DNA of 64,000 nt from Crocinitomicaceae bacterium. Lineage in GTDB: Bacteria; Bacteroidota; Bacteroidia; Flavobacteriales_D; Crocinitomicaceae. The DNA is taken from contig JAGQYP010000010.1 in the NCBI GenBank assembly GCA_020436025.1, forward strand, positions 1 through 64,000, written 5' to 3'. Both the position numbers and the translations under genes were made by a program. Below the pieces are notes generated by a model, which was given only the letters and a program-made list of their open reading frames with translations, had not been told where the DNA came from and searched no databases. Shown in pieces: positions 18,009 to 63,294 of the stretch (positions within the stretch are counted from its first letter, which is position 1; each line of letters begins with the position of its first letter).

Positions 18009-18073
<65 letters not shown>

Positions 18074-30914: not shown

Positions 30915-31314
30915 GGGGCTGACATGGATTTGACAGCGATAGCGTTTGTTAAGTAAGCATGTAGAGCTTTGAGGTGTAGCTCTTTAATCTAATGTCTCAC
31001 AACAATAATCGACAACGATTATAATTACGCACTTGCAGCTTAATTCCCAAAGGGAATATAGCTTAATCCACTCCGAAGTATAGTAAGAGGGACAAGTAAT
31101 TCCACCGGTTTGCGTTTGATAGAACCGGAATCTGGAGTTTCATTATATCGAACTAGTCTGGATATTGCTTCGGTTGAAGGGCGAAATTTTAAGAAGCTAA
31201 GTCTCAGGTAGGGTGTTTGTGTCCGGCCTGTTATCGAAAATCAATCGCAAAATAAACATGTAGAAGGCTTAATGGATCGTAGTTTGGACGAGGGTTCGAT
31301 CCCCTCCAGCTCCA
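30915..31314 (+). ncRNA. ssrA: Transfer-messenger RNA (tmRNA)
   Basis: A 400-nt tmRNA that rescues stalled ribosomes. The 5' end GGGGCTGACATGGATTTGACAG and 3' end GGTTCGATCCCCTCCAGCTCCA give the tRNA-like acceptor stem (GGGGCT pairs with AGCTCC) and T arm; CCA is not encoded. The tag frame is at 31011-31043: GAC AAC GAT TAT AAT TAC GCA CTT GCA GCT TAA, giving DNDYNYALAA, preceded by TAATC in the position of the usual TAGTC element. The resume codon is therefore GAC rather than the common GCA or GGC. SmpB is not encoded nearby. Confidence 0.96.
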
Positions 31315-31341
31315 CTGGAGAAGCAAGAGTATTGAGCAAGA

Positions 31342-31375
31342 GCAAGAGAATAGAAATGAGTCTATTTGCTCTTGC
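31342..31375 (+). repeat. Hairpin built from CAAGAG hexamers after tmRNA
   Basis: GCAAGAG-AATAG / CTATT-TG-CTCTTGC can form a 12-bp stem with a two-base bulge and an 8-base loop. Extra GCAAGAG units stand at 31323-31329 and 31335-31342. It is followed by CTTATTT, a weak T tract, so it might end the tmRNA precursor. Confidence 0.5.
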
Positions 31376-31380
31376 CTTAT

Positions 31381-31725
31381 TTAAGAAAGTCGATTTATCA
31401 TTGCAAAAAGCATTTTGGAAATTTCTTCAAGAATGCTGTAAAATTTTTTAAACTCTTCTTCCGTTGCCACTTTTTTGTTTTTCAAATAGATAAATACTCC
31501 AGCGCATTCAAATGCTGAACCTCTTGAGATAACAAAAAAATGCCTTTTATCTTTCGGAGTCCTCCTCCCAGAACCTTCTGAAATATTGAGCATAATACTC
31601 AACGAGGCTCTTTTTAGTTGATCATGAGTTGTGAAATCAAGTTTTTTGGAATCAAGGAATTCATCCAATTCAATATTATAGGCTGATGTTTTATGGAATA
31701 CATCCAATTTCTCAAAGTCAAACAT
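31381..31725 (-). CDS. S23-type four-helix bundle protein
   Basis: A 114-residue protein of the 23S-rRNA-intervening-sequence/S23 family (PF05635, TIGR02436). The opening FEKLDVFHKTSAYNIEL, the central QLKRASLSIMLNISEGSGR and SRGSAFECAGVF are diagnostic. Members occur inside rRNA intervening sequences, as Avd accessory proteins of diversity-generating retroelements, and as orphan genes; no reverse transcriptase or rRNA is present here. It lies directly behind tmRNA on the opposite strand and has its own promoter (31751-31779). It is flanked by CAAGAG hexamers on one side and 17 CTCTTG-type hexamers on the other, which suggests a small acquired cassette. Confidence 0.85.
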   Translation of the reverse strand: MFDFEKLDVFHKTSAYNIELDEFLDSKKLDFTTHDQLKRASLSIMLNISEGSGRRTPKDKRHFFVISRGSAFECAGVFIYLKNKKVATEEEFKKFYSILEEISKMLFAMINRLS

Positions 31726-31750
31726 GGTATATGATTTAAATGGTTGGAAA

Positions 31751-31779
31751 CAAAAGTATAAATTTTTGGAAATACCAAA
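31751..31779 (-). promoter_or_regulatory. Promoter of the S23-type gene
   Basis: Minus-strand TTTG (31779-31776), a 17-bp spacer and TACTTTTG (31758-31751), 25 bases before ATG 31725: a good match to the Bacteroidota consensus. Confidence 0.6.
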
Positions 31780-31810
31780 ACCAATAAAAAAAATAAAAAA
31801 TACCTTTTAA

Positions 31811-31914
31811 GCTCTTGCTCTTGCTCTTGCTCTTGCTCTTGCTCTTGCTCTTGCTCTTGCTCTTGCTCTTGCTCTTGCTCTTGCTCTTGCTCTTGCTCTT
31901 GCTCTTGCTCTTGC
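31811..31914. repeat. Hexamer microsatellite (GCTCTT) x 17.3
   Basis: Seventeen perfect uninterrupted copies of GCTCTT plus two bases. On the right it abuts the A/T tract of a minus-strand terminator; on the left it lies 86 bp upstream of the S23-type start. The long open frames across it (Glu-Gln or Ala-Arg repeats) are by-products of the period-6 repeat. Confidence 0.97.
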
Positions 31915-31941
31915 AAAAAAAAGGAGACCGAAGCCTCCTTT
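31915..31941 (-). terminator. Rho-independent terminator of the 31964-32801 gene pair
   Basis: On the minus strand AAAGGAG / CTCCTTT forms a 7-bp stem with an 8-base loop, followed by a T run that touches the hexamer array. Confidence 0.85.
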
Positions 31942-31963
31942 CATAAAGATATCAATTAACGTT

Positions 31964-32476
31964 TTATTTTCCTGCAGCCTTCTTCGCTTCAGCTTTAAAA
32001 GCATCAGAGGCTTCTTTGTTCGCAAACTGACAGAACATCCAATCAATTTTATCAGATGACTTTGTTCCGCTAGAGCAATAGTGTTGATCTTTTACTCCTG
32101 GCTTGTCAGTACGTTTGAAAGAAGTACCGAATGATAATTGGTGTGCAGGATTCCCCATGTATCCAGTAATGGACTCTTCCTTACTTCTCGACTCAAACAT
32201 GTTGTTGAAAGCCCAGTTGATTTCAGAAAGTGCCATGTGAGATTGGGTAACCATGTAAACGGAACCTTCTTTGGTATATACAAGTGTAAAATAAGCTTCT
32301 CCATCTTTAATTCCGGCGTACCATTCGTACATTGTACCTTCTGCACCGGCTTTTACATCAGAAAAAACTTTTTTACCAATAAGATCTACCGAATTTGTTC
32401 CACAAGTGGCTTTTGCTTGTCCAAACGTAAATGCTGAAACTAAAGCAAAACTTAGGGTTAAGAATAAACTTTACAT
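31964..32476 (-). pseudogene. Small secreted protein gene with a stop at codon 2
   Basis: Reading from ATG 32476 the second codon is TAA, and the same frame then stays open to 31964. The frame after the stop begins with a clear signal peptide (SLFLTLSFALVSAFTFGQA) and a ~150-residue mature domain with three cysteines (ATCGTNS, DQHYCSSG, DWMFCQF). A single change, TAA from AAA, would account for the break. The next ATG (32332) removes the whole signal peptide. It follows the upstream gene's stop by one base, so the two form one unit. No family is recognised. Sequencing error, very recent inactivation or an unusual start are all possible. Confidence 0.6.
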
Positions 32477-48639: not shown

Positions 48640-48800
48640 TCCCTCATTCTCATTCTCAAACTCATTCTGGAAAGAGTGCTAGGTTCTAGGTTCTAAGTTC
48701 TAATTAGTTAGTTTTATTTACTGTTCACTCAAACTTCAAACTCAAACTTTTTATTTCGCAAAGTGACGCAAAGGAGACGCGAAGTTTCGCGAAGGTAGAG
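48640..48800. repeat. Cluster of short dispersed repeats
   Basis: The gap after the CapA-like gene holds, in order: three CATTCT-type copies (48643-48668), three degenerate TTCTAAG heptamers (48681-48702), CAAACT repeats (48729-48748), a CGCAAAG series (48757-48773) and a perfect 14-bp palindrome, CGCGAAGTTTCGCG (48778-48791). No open frame or T-tailed hairpin is seen. Confidence 0.75.
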
Positions 48801-60963: not shown

Positions 60964-63294
60964 CTAGTGTTTGACTACAAGTCTTTTGTAAATTTTATCC
61001 TCAAGTATAACCTGAATAATATAGGTTCCATTGGCTTCATTTATTTCCATTGGAATAAGCGAATTACTTTGGAATTGCTTACTTGAAATTTCACGTCCGT
61101 CTAAAGATAAGACTTTCACTTCTCCTGAATGGGTTGTATTAGGTAGCATTATTGTAAATGTCCCGTTGGTTGGGTTGGGATAAACTACGAATTCATCACC
61201 AAAACTGTTTTCTTCGATCCCAACTGTTGCAATAGCCACACAAATTGAAGTGTCCGTACATCCGTTTTCCGTTAACTCTACAGCATAGTCGCCATTCATA
61301 GTAGCGGTGAATGTTTGACTAGTTTCTCCTGTAATTACCGAGTTATTATTATTGCAATCCAACCATTGATAAGTAGCACCAGTATTCACGGCTGAGATGG
61401 TTTCTCCTGAAAGTGTAGTAGATATATCAGGCAATTGATTTATCGTTACGTCAAATGAATTTTCGTCTGTGCAAGTACCATTTACTGCGTACACATATAG
61501 AGTTTGATTTGCAGTAACACTTGTTCCTACTGAAATCATGGATCCAGTTCCGCCTGAACCAGTGTAGTAGTTTCCTACGGTTAAACTTGGTAAAACATAA
61601 CTATCACATTCAGTAACATCCGATGGTGCATCTGCTGTAGGTGTAGTATTGATTGTTACGGCAAATGAATTCTCGTCTGTGCAAGTACCATTTTCTGCAT
61701 ATACATATAGTGTTTGATTTGCTGTAATACTTGCTCCTACGGAAAGCATGGATCCAGTTCCTCCTGTACCAGTGTAGTAGTTTCCTACAGTTAAACTTGG
61801 TAAATCATAACTATCACATGCAGTAACATCCGATGGTGCATCTGCTGTTGGTGTAGTGTTTATAGTTACGGTAAATGAATTTTCGTCTGTGCAAGTGCCA
61901 TTTACTGCGTATACATATAGAGTTAGATTTCCAATAATACTTGTTCCTACTGAAAGCATTGTTCCGGTCCCACCTGAACCAGTGTAGTAGTTTCCTACGG
62001 ATAAACTTGGTAAATCGTAACTATCACATGCAGTAACATTCGATGGTGCATCAGCTACAGGAGTAGCTTGAACACTTTGGAAATTAAATACCGGGTAACC
62101 TCCTGAGCTGCAAATCCCCATATCCCATATATCACTTGTACCATTTGTAGTTTCTCCTACAAAATCCCAAGTAGTCGAAGTAAATGTTGAAAGCGTTTGA
62201 AGTTCCGCAGTTGTCTTCCCTGTTCCAGCTGGACTTGATCCTGCGTAAACATCCGTATTCCAATACGTATTGATAGCAGTTCCACCGCTTAAAATAAGTC
62301 CTACCAATCCACCCACGTTTGATCCACTACTCGATATGGTAGAAACTACATAACTGTTGTTAATTGTAGCTGAAAAAACGTAGCCAACCAGACCACCAGT
62401 TATATCACCTCCATTTACACTTCCATTGGCATAGGAGTTGGATAATGTAGATGATGAAAAGAGTTTTCCTACAAGGCCACCTAAGTTCCCCATAGTTCCA
62501 TTTTCTGAAATCGAACAAGTTGAATAGCATTCAGAAATAGTAGATCCGAATGAATATCCTACTAATCCACCTGTTCCGCTATCTTTACCAATAACACTTC
62601 CTTCGGAATAAGATTTGCTAACAGAAGAACCTTGGGCTATAAAACCAACAAGCCCACCTGCTTCACCTTGCATTGAAATGACAGTAATAGTGGTGGTGCA
62701 GTTTGTGTTACAACTAACTATTGAACTACCAAAACAATACCCAACTAATCCACCTGTATCTGAATTACCTGTAACAGATCCAGAAACACTACAACTTGTG
62801 ATTTGGCTTGCACTATTTATGAAGCCAGCTAACCCACCTGTTTGGGACATACTACTACCATTAGTAATGTTGACATTTGTTAAGTGCAGGTTTGAGATAC
62901 TAGCGCCAACACAATATCCAAACATTCCTAATCCATTCATAGATGAAGAATTATTGATAAATAAACCATCGATTGAATGTCCATCACCATTATATGAGCC
63001 TTGAAAAGGGGATCCGTCTCCAATACTGATGAAACCTGTTCCACCATTAAAAAAAGCACCTCCACTTTGAAAATCTGGAGCCGTGAAAGCTATATCATTG
63101 GTTTGAATGAAATGTTTAGTCCATTCACCAGCATTTTCACTAAGATATTTCAAGTCGGTTTTGTTAGCAATTTGGTATGGATCAAGAGTTGTTCCAGCTC
63201 CTCCAGAATAACTCTGAGCATTTACAATTTGTACATTTGTACCAAGGACAATGCACAAGTTGACTACTATGAATTTTAAGTTTTTTGTTTTCAT
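60964..63294 (-). CDS. Type IX-secreted GLUG and Ig-like repeat surface protein
   Basis: A 776-residue secreted protein. After a signal peptide (1-26), GLUG repeats occupy about 140-345 (GGLAGFINSASQITSCSVSG, GGLVGYCFGSSIVSC and similar). Three near-identical 70-residue repeats follow (about 410-620; CDSYDLPSLTVGNYYTGTGG each). The C-terminal ~80 residues are a Por/type IX sorting domain (FVVYPNPTNGTFTIML, EVKVLSLDGREI, terminal IYKRLVVKH), so it crosses the outer membrane by the type IX system and is anchored or released. The function is probably adhesive or matrix. The DNA repeats have an exact 210-bp period at about 61430-62060. Confidence 0.88.
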   Translation of the reverse strand: MKTKNLKFIVVNLCIVLGTNVQIVNAQSYSGGAGTTLDPYQIANKTDLKYLSENAGEWTKHFIQTNDIAFTAPDFQSGGAFFNGGTGFISIGDGSPFQGSYNGDGHSIDGLFINNSSSMNGLGMFGYCVGASISNLHLTNVNITNGSSMSQTGGLAGFINSASQITSCSVSGSVTGNSDTGGLVGYCFGSSIVSCNTNCTTTITVISMQGEAGGLVGFIAQGSSVSKSYSEGSVIGKDSGTGGLVGYSFGSTISECYSTCSISENGTMGNLGGLVGKLFSSSTLSNSYANGSVNGGDITGGLVGYVFSATINNSYVVSTISSSGSNVGGLVGLILSGGTAINTYWNTDVYAGSSPAGTGKTTAELQTLSTFTSTTWDFVGETTNGTSDIWDMGICSSGGYPVFNFQSVQATPVADAPSNVTACDSYDLPSLSVGNYYTGSGGTGTMLSVGTSIIGNLTLYVYAVNGTCTDENSFTVTINTTPTADAPSDVTACDSYDLPSLTVGNYYTGTGGTGSMLSVGASITANQTLYVYAENGTCTDENSFAVTINTTPTADAPSDVTECDSYVLPSLTVGNYYTGSGGTGSMISVGTSVTANQTLYVYAVNGTCTDENSFDVTINQLPDISTTLSGETISAVNTGATYQWLDCNNNNSVITGETSQTFTATMNGDYAVELTENGCTDTSICVAIATVGIEENSFGDEFVVYPNPTNGTFTIMLPNTTHSGEVKVLSLDGREISSKQFQSNSLIPMEINEANGTYIIQVILEDKIYKRLVVKH
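61430..62060. repeat. Three 210-bp tandem coding repeats
   Basis: The landmark GTAACAT recurs at 61613, 61823 and 62033, i.e. exactly 210 bp apart, and long blocks between are nearly identical. They encode the three 70-residue Ig-like repeats of the surface protein and can vary by recombination. Confidence 0.9.

Follow-up and report, generated by a model that had tools for sequence, protein, structure and literature searches.

An S23 gene between inverted short-repeat arms beside tmRNA in a Crocinitomicaceae bacterium: a probable copy of a widespread mobile cassette

The S23 locus beside the tmRNA gene

In a 64,000-nt stretch of contig JAGQYP010000010.1 from a Crocinitomicaceae bacterium (hereafter the window, whose positions are used as coordinates), a single gene of the S23 four-helix-bundle family lies between two arrays of short tandem repeats, next to the transfer-messenger RNA (tmRNA) gene. 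The gene (S23, also 23S_rRNA_IVP; 31381..31725, minus strand) encodes a protein of 114 aa, which is matched both by PF05635 (E 7.6e-23, 81.2 bits against a cut-off of 33.8) and by TIGR02436 (E 6.6e-22, 77.8 bits against a cut-off of 24), in agreement with the S23-type minus-strand gene proposed here by a first-pass annotation. That annotation had also inferred a small repeat-bracketed cassette devoid of any recognisable mobility enzyme, perhaps of an undescribed type, and S23 genes elsewhere prove likewise to lie between inverted short repeats. We consider it probable that the locus is a copy of a widely distributed mobile cassette, composed of a single S23 gene and inverted short-repeat arms (usually of 7-nt units) and seated in a tight non-coding gap.

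The 5' arm (31811..31914, minus strand) consists of 17.3 perfect tandem hexamers, reading AAGAGC on the S23 strand and GCTCTT on the plus strand (Tandem Repeats Finder match 100%, score 208), which bears out the 17 perfect GCTCTT copies first reported to abut the terminator. The 3' arm, downstream of the gene (31323..31375, minus strand) and just past the tmRNA 3' end, holds three CAAGAG units on the plus strand (31324-31329, 31337-31342 and 31343-31348), also as first reported, together with GCTCTTGC at 31368-31375, and is partly self-complementary. The two arrays are mutually inverted around the S23 gene (CAAGAG vs CTCTTG), and the match of this arm pair ranks first against mismatched partners. 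The PF05635 gene is the only gene between the arms, which enclose no transposase, integrase or reverse transcriptase gene.

Directly 5' of the S23 start codon lies a conserved leader motif, AACCATTTAAATCA (31732..31745, minus strand), which occurs once in the 64 kb. It stands immediately before 11 of the 22 S23 starts of the genus and is found nowhere in 60 kb of other DNA; written as AACCAYTTAAATCA, the leader motif at 31732-31745 appears almost S23-specific in this genus. Between the leader and the 5' arm is a putative Bacteroidota-like promoter, TTTG ... TACTTTTG (31751..31779, minus strand), with a -7 box, TACTTTTG, read from the sequence at 31758-31751. The proposal that the S23 gene has its own promoter thus holds as a consensus match, which is a resemblance only.

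The tmRNA gene (ssrA; 30915..31315, plus strand; ARAGORN, and Rfam RF00023 at 147.9 bits) is a neighbour outside the cassette, its 3' end being placed at 31315 or 31317 by ARAGORN and Rfam. On the other side, the terminator hairpin (31915..31943, minus strand) of the upstream minus-strand gene at 31964-32332 adjoins the 5' arm, and the cassette starts immediately after it. Elsewhere in the window, a 210-bp direct repeat is present in 2.9 copies with 88% matches (61438-62056).

Inverted arms and the S23 protein across bacteria

PF05635 genes number 13 in the window genome and nine in the one congener sampled. Nearly all of the 13 are flanked on one side by locus-specific short tandem repeats and on the other by their reverse complement. 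The first-pass annotation had suggested a search for other S23 genes flanked by CAAGAG/CTCTTG arrays; that hexamer is unusual, because most S23 arm units are heptamers, and CAAGAG is a variant of the usual heptad. At other S23 loci of this genome and the congener the upstream units include AGTTCTA, AGTTCCA, GAATTCG, CAAAGTG, AATAGGT and GTAAAAG, each with its reverse complement downstream. At loci with both flanks, the arm's own partner was the best match in 16 of 21 cases, the second best in three and the third best in two.

Across the family, 86 of 100 genomes contain an S23 gene (334 genes in total). With inverted arms defined by a flank match of z > 4, 48 of 73 S23 genes have them, against 4/207 other genes from the same stretches of DNA (Fisher 1e-30) and 0/32 small control genes. 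The pattern spreads over many phyla: in a sample of 80 named loci, drawn from a wide range of bacteria and one archaeal metagenome-assembled genome, 59 pass the same test, and a rerun with in-locus controls, over about 16 phylum-level groups, gave 56/78 S23 loci vs 6/133 control open reading frames and 27/465 mismatched pairs (Fisher 5e-26). Some of these loci come from metagenome-assembled genomes and claims about single phyla need caution; isolates of cyanobacteria, alphaproteobacteria and Bacteroidota each show the pattern independently.

The repeat period is sharply 7, followed by 8. In upstream flanks 3.4-7.4% of positions repeat at lag 7, vs 0.1-0.6% at lags 1-6, and control genes reach about 1.0% at lag 7. 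Over 115 distinct elements the upstream-arm unit has a strand-specific consensus near AGGNAWT, with 2.39 bits of information per heptad vs 1.18-1.24 in shuffled arms. Tandem arrays of lag 7 or 8 number ten in an S23-rich sample and none in an S23-less one, and 356 kb sampled from S23-less genomes contain no lag-7 array. At orthologous sdhA|sdhB sites the arms are element-specific (0 of 20000 permutations).

Two repeat clusters of the window stand apart from its S23 gene. One is a solo AGTTCTA array of 9.3 copies (18009-18073), whose unit is identical to that of S23 locus L002 in the same genome; the other (48640-48760) combines CTCATTCTCA, CTAGGTT and GTTCACTCAAACTTC and resembles the arms of three S23 loci of that genome.

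The S23 protein is under purifying selection, with a ratio of nonsynonymous to synonymous substitution (dN/dS) of 0.07-0.28 in nine pairs and 0.48 in the closest pair. Structures have been solved for the relatives XCC0516 (2GSC) and 2RLD, and the X. campestris homologue is a pentamer of four-helix bundles according to work cited in PMC4990558. Q36, S43, N47, E50, G51, S70 and E73 (window numbering) are invariant among 22 aligned S23 proteins; for the genome scan this alignment was too divergent, and seven sequences were used. Since no catalytic motif is apparent in the aligned proteins, S23 is more likely to be a nucleic-acid-binding or scaffolding factor than a joining enzyme. The window protein has no hit to the Avd equivalog model NF033474, and a reading as anti-phage defence was dropped when no PADLOC model matched.

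Sites, probable movement and a likely gene-less relative

Most cassettes sit between protein genes, many of them within operons and in the operon's direction, and 58 of 72 S23 genes are co-directional with both neighbours. Bacteroidota sites include sdhA|sdhB, sufB|sufC and cysD|cysN, and on cyanobacterial plasmids they include cas6|cas4, cas10|cmr3, nrd and conjugation operons. Two cassettes lie in CRISPR operons, at cas6|cas4 of Anabaena sp. 90 (L155 1501-1869) and at cas10|cmr3 of Picosynechococcus PCC 7003 (L158 1501-1857). The 3' end of tmRNA, the integration site first put forward for the window, is not where cassettes usually insert; this position, or that after a tRNA gene, is used by the clade to which the window S23 belongs (the MFDFEKL clade; five members, tree support 100). 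Two further genera have a member behind tmRNA, the window genome has another behind tRNA-Leu, and the fifth (L010) has no tRNA nearby. Genome G031 has another S23 gene after tmRNA, which was left out of the tree; just 4/30 tmRNA loci of the family carry an S23 gene. In genome G046 (L061) a hairpin resembling the tmRNA terminator is duplicated in tandem together with an S23 gene.

Sites are found empty, filled, replaced and as relics. One case comes from two plasmids of Nostoc sp. ATCC 53789, pNsp_a and pNsp_c, which carry near-identical operons (98, 94 and 99% protein identity of the genes). The first junction is filled by an S23 cassette in pNsp_a and the second by another in pNsp_c (S23 41% protein identity, different heptads), each plasmid being empty at the junction filled in the other. 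Of the homologous plasmids, five have a 3-nt spacer at the first junction and three have it filled. The element filling it in pNsp_a matches the one on a plasmid from strain C052 at 416/420 positions (99%), and the adjoining genes match at 408/441 (92.5%).

Same-site replacement occurs in Bacteroidota. At sdhA|sdhB, genomes G057 and G028 have flanks 98.5/95.5% identical around S23 genes that are 76.7% identical and have different arms, and between G065 and G002 the S23 genes are 98.2% identical within flanks of 85.6/91.6%. Elsewhere sdhA|sdhB is a clean spacer of 26-52 nt, or contains a relic or an inverted repeat lacking a gene. Seven cyanobacterial S23 genes with 70-83% DNA identity lie in different genera and in unrelated surroundings. 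For the window site itself, the comparison of tmRNA downstream regions proposed at first pass shows that the congener's syntenic locus has the same downstream propeller gene but neither S23 gene nor arrays. Taken together, the reciprocal empty sites, the contrast between element and flank identity, and element replacement support the view that the cassette appears mobile between sites.

In genus g10 the sdhA|sdhB junction holds GTAGG...CCTAC hairpins (L099, L100, L106, L107 and L110), and in other genera S23 cassettes lie there; these hairpins were set aside as REP-like (REP, repetitive extragenic palindrome).

A gene-less relative of the cassette is likely to be represented by a 182-bp non-coding repeat. 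In the Peltigera cyanobiont N6 this unit interrupts the S23 gene of an element of the pNsp_a/C052 type (L247 885-1066), and its ends (TCAGAAG, TCAGAAT, TCAGGAG) are the same heptads as those of the host element, inverted. The family occupies 92 places in 43 Nostocales plasmids, has no match to a known RNA in Rfam, and also interrupts a rarA-like gene in Calothrix (L290-L295 among its loci). We infer that this repeat may be mobilised by S23. Gene-less heptad hairpins were considered as a common Bacteroidota feature as well, but one weak case in 461 kb makes no general rule in these genomes.

Proposed mechanism, rival explanations and known systems

To account for this anatomy, we propose, as the simplest model that fits the data, a fold-back: S23 would bind the arms, and these would pair into a stem with the gene in its loop, like the ends of rRNA intervening sequences. 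The fold-back could form in read-through RNA or in single-stranded DNA, with S23 seated on the heptads. In a read-through transcript the stem might let RNase III excise the cassette and leave the message of the operon usable. In DNA, the S23-bound arms may be the termini on which enzymes of host replication or repair act, copying or joining them into a fresh gap; this would often be the equivalent gap of a different genome (homing). Because one arm could act as the template for its partner in the fold-back, the arms would turn over but stay matched. Such a model would explain why the arms are inverted, have a strand polarity and match inside one element and, on the analogy of rRNA intervening sequences removed by RNase III (PMC4990558), why cassettes are tolerated in operons.

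Several observations weigh against a mobile cassette of this kind. About 30% of S23 genes are without significant inverted arms, the arms at sufB|sufC were not element-specific in the permutation test on orthologous sites, and no target-site duplication is certain. The S23 proteins of the family largely group by site (sdh, suf) in the tree, so that many copies have either stayed in place over the long term or home to one site, and do not hop freely. At the window locus the comparison with the congener's empty site is blurred by differences in other small genes; the RNA folding is not significantly stable (z -1.07); and, as the promoter-like site lies on the gene side of the 5' arm, the S23 gene's own transcript would be without that arm. 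The cassette also has no known strand-joining enzyme.

An explanation confined to RNA would give the arms the role of folding the S23 mRNA out of a polycistronic transcript, to be cut by RNase III, with spread by homologous recombination or gene transfer and a host RNA function for S23. The S23 reading frame of rRNA intervening sequences, which occupies the loop of a terminal stem and is excised by RNase III (PMC4990558), offers a precedent, and both the single strand polarity of the arms relative to the gene and the co-directionality with neighbours fit. Nevertheless, the reciprocal insertions in near-identical operons and the unrelated sites of closely related S23 genes need true insertion at new sites, and we hold this explanation to be unlikely. 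Still less probable is a retroelement in which S23, acting like Avd, would work with a reverse transcriptase supplied in trans on the folded RNA. PF05635 does resemble the Avd of diversity-generating retroelements (PMC10053308), and one Nostoc S23 protein matches the Avd model, weakly. Against this, there is no RVT_1 hit in the window genome (G000; 13 S23 genes) or in the congener (nine), RVT_1 is absent from 52/86 S23-bearing genomes, and the copy numbers of S23 and RVT_1 are uncorrelated; with no association, dependence on reverse transcriptase was rejected. That short tandem repeats are simply common in these intergenic regions, where S23 genes merely collect, might be suggested by the two solo arrays of the window. 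However, with inverted arms in 2-5% of control genes vs 66-72% of S23 genes, arms that are inverted and locus-specific, and the array-free 356 kb from S23-less genomes, we regard coincidence as very improbable.

Returning to the mobile cassette, a broader proposal seems to us evenly balanced between true and false: that S23 cassettes form a mobile-element class of their own, spread over many phyla, in which a small four-helix protein without catalytic activity assists movement by acting on heptad arms that renew themselves; that the unexplained heptanucleotide arrays of cyanobacteria and other bacteria come in part from them, and S23-bearing rRNA intervening sequences descend from them; and that gene-less heptad-armed repeats are their passengers. 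Very many genomes have S23 genes annotated as "four helix bundle" with no function assigned. If the proposal is true, one cassette would connect these orphan genes with rRNA intervening sequences, on whose origin there is no agreement (PMC4990558), and with the heptanucleotide repeats of cyanobacteria, Xanthomonas and Beggiatoaceae, on whose source there is none either (PMC4679880, PMC4692102), and a mobile element with no recognisable recombinase would reside in core operons such as sdh and suf. The system would be testable: it comprises a single gene with its arms, and both empty and filled sites are known in Nostoc, which can be cultured.

The cassette's closest known counterpart is the intervening sequence of 23S rRNA that encodes S23 (Leptospira, Coxiella), a suspected selfish element of unclear origin (PMC4990558), which has the same gene family and one reading frame between complementary stem-forming ends. 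The cassette differs in lying outside rRNA, between protein genes or after tmRNA or tRNA, in having arms of tandem 6-8-nt repeats that vary by locus, and in the comparative evidence of movement. Rfam finds no rRNA in the window, where the cassette lies between tmRNA and a protein gene. Heptanucleotide arrays (GGGGAYT, GGGAATC, TAACTGA) share the 7-nt unit, often G-rich on one strand, and the intergenic position. One paper describes them from Xanthomonas and Nostoc, the former having about 70 convergent (inverted) pairs (PMC4692102); another reports them from Beggiatoaceae, Cyanobacteria and Bacteroidetes, with no evident transmission mechanism (PMC4679880). Neither paper mentions S23, whereas here the arrays are the arms of S23 cassettes. 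We found no link between S23 or four-helix-bundle proteins and short tandem repeats in the open-access library that the search covered, and priority is therefore not proven.

Diversity-generating retroelements have in Avd a related four-helix protein (PMC10053308), but the cassette has no reverse transcriptase and the window genome no RVT_1 hit. REP elements with their associated transposases (REP/RAYT) and miniature inverted-repeat transposable elements (MITEs) likewise have inverted terminal repeats and gene-less relatives, the 182-bp Nostocales repeat being the probable gene-less relative of the cassette; the cassette, in contrast, has no transposase and is bounded by variable tandem arrays instead of a fixed palindrome. 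Unlike an insertion sequence or transposon, it has no transposase between its inverted ends, and unlike a tmRNA-integrated genomic island it has no integrase between tmRNA and the next genes, its repeats being inverted simple arrays that contain no tmRNA copy. As it thus has neither the rRNA location nor the transposase, integrase or reverse transcriptase by which these systems are defined, we rate the cassette as a new kind of element, although on a more cautious view it may be a variant of the rRNA intervening sequence.
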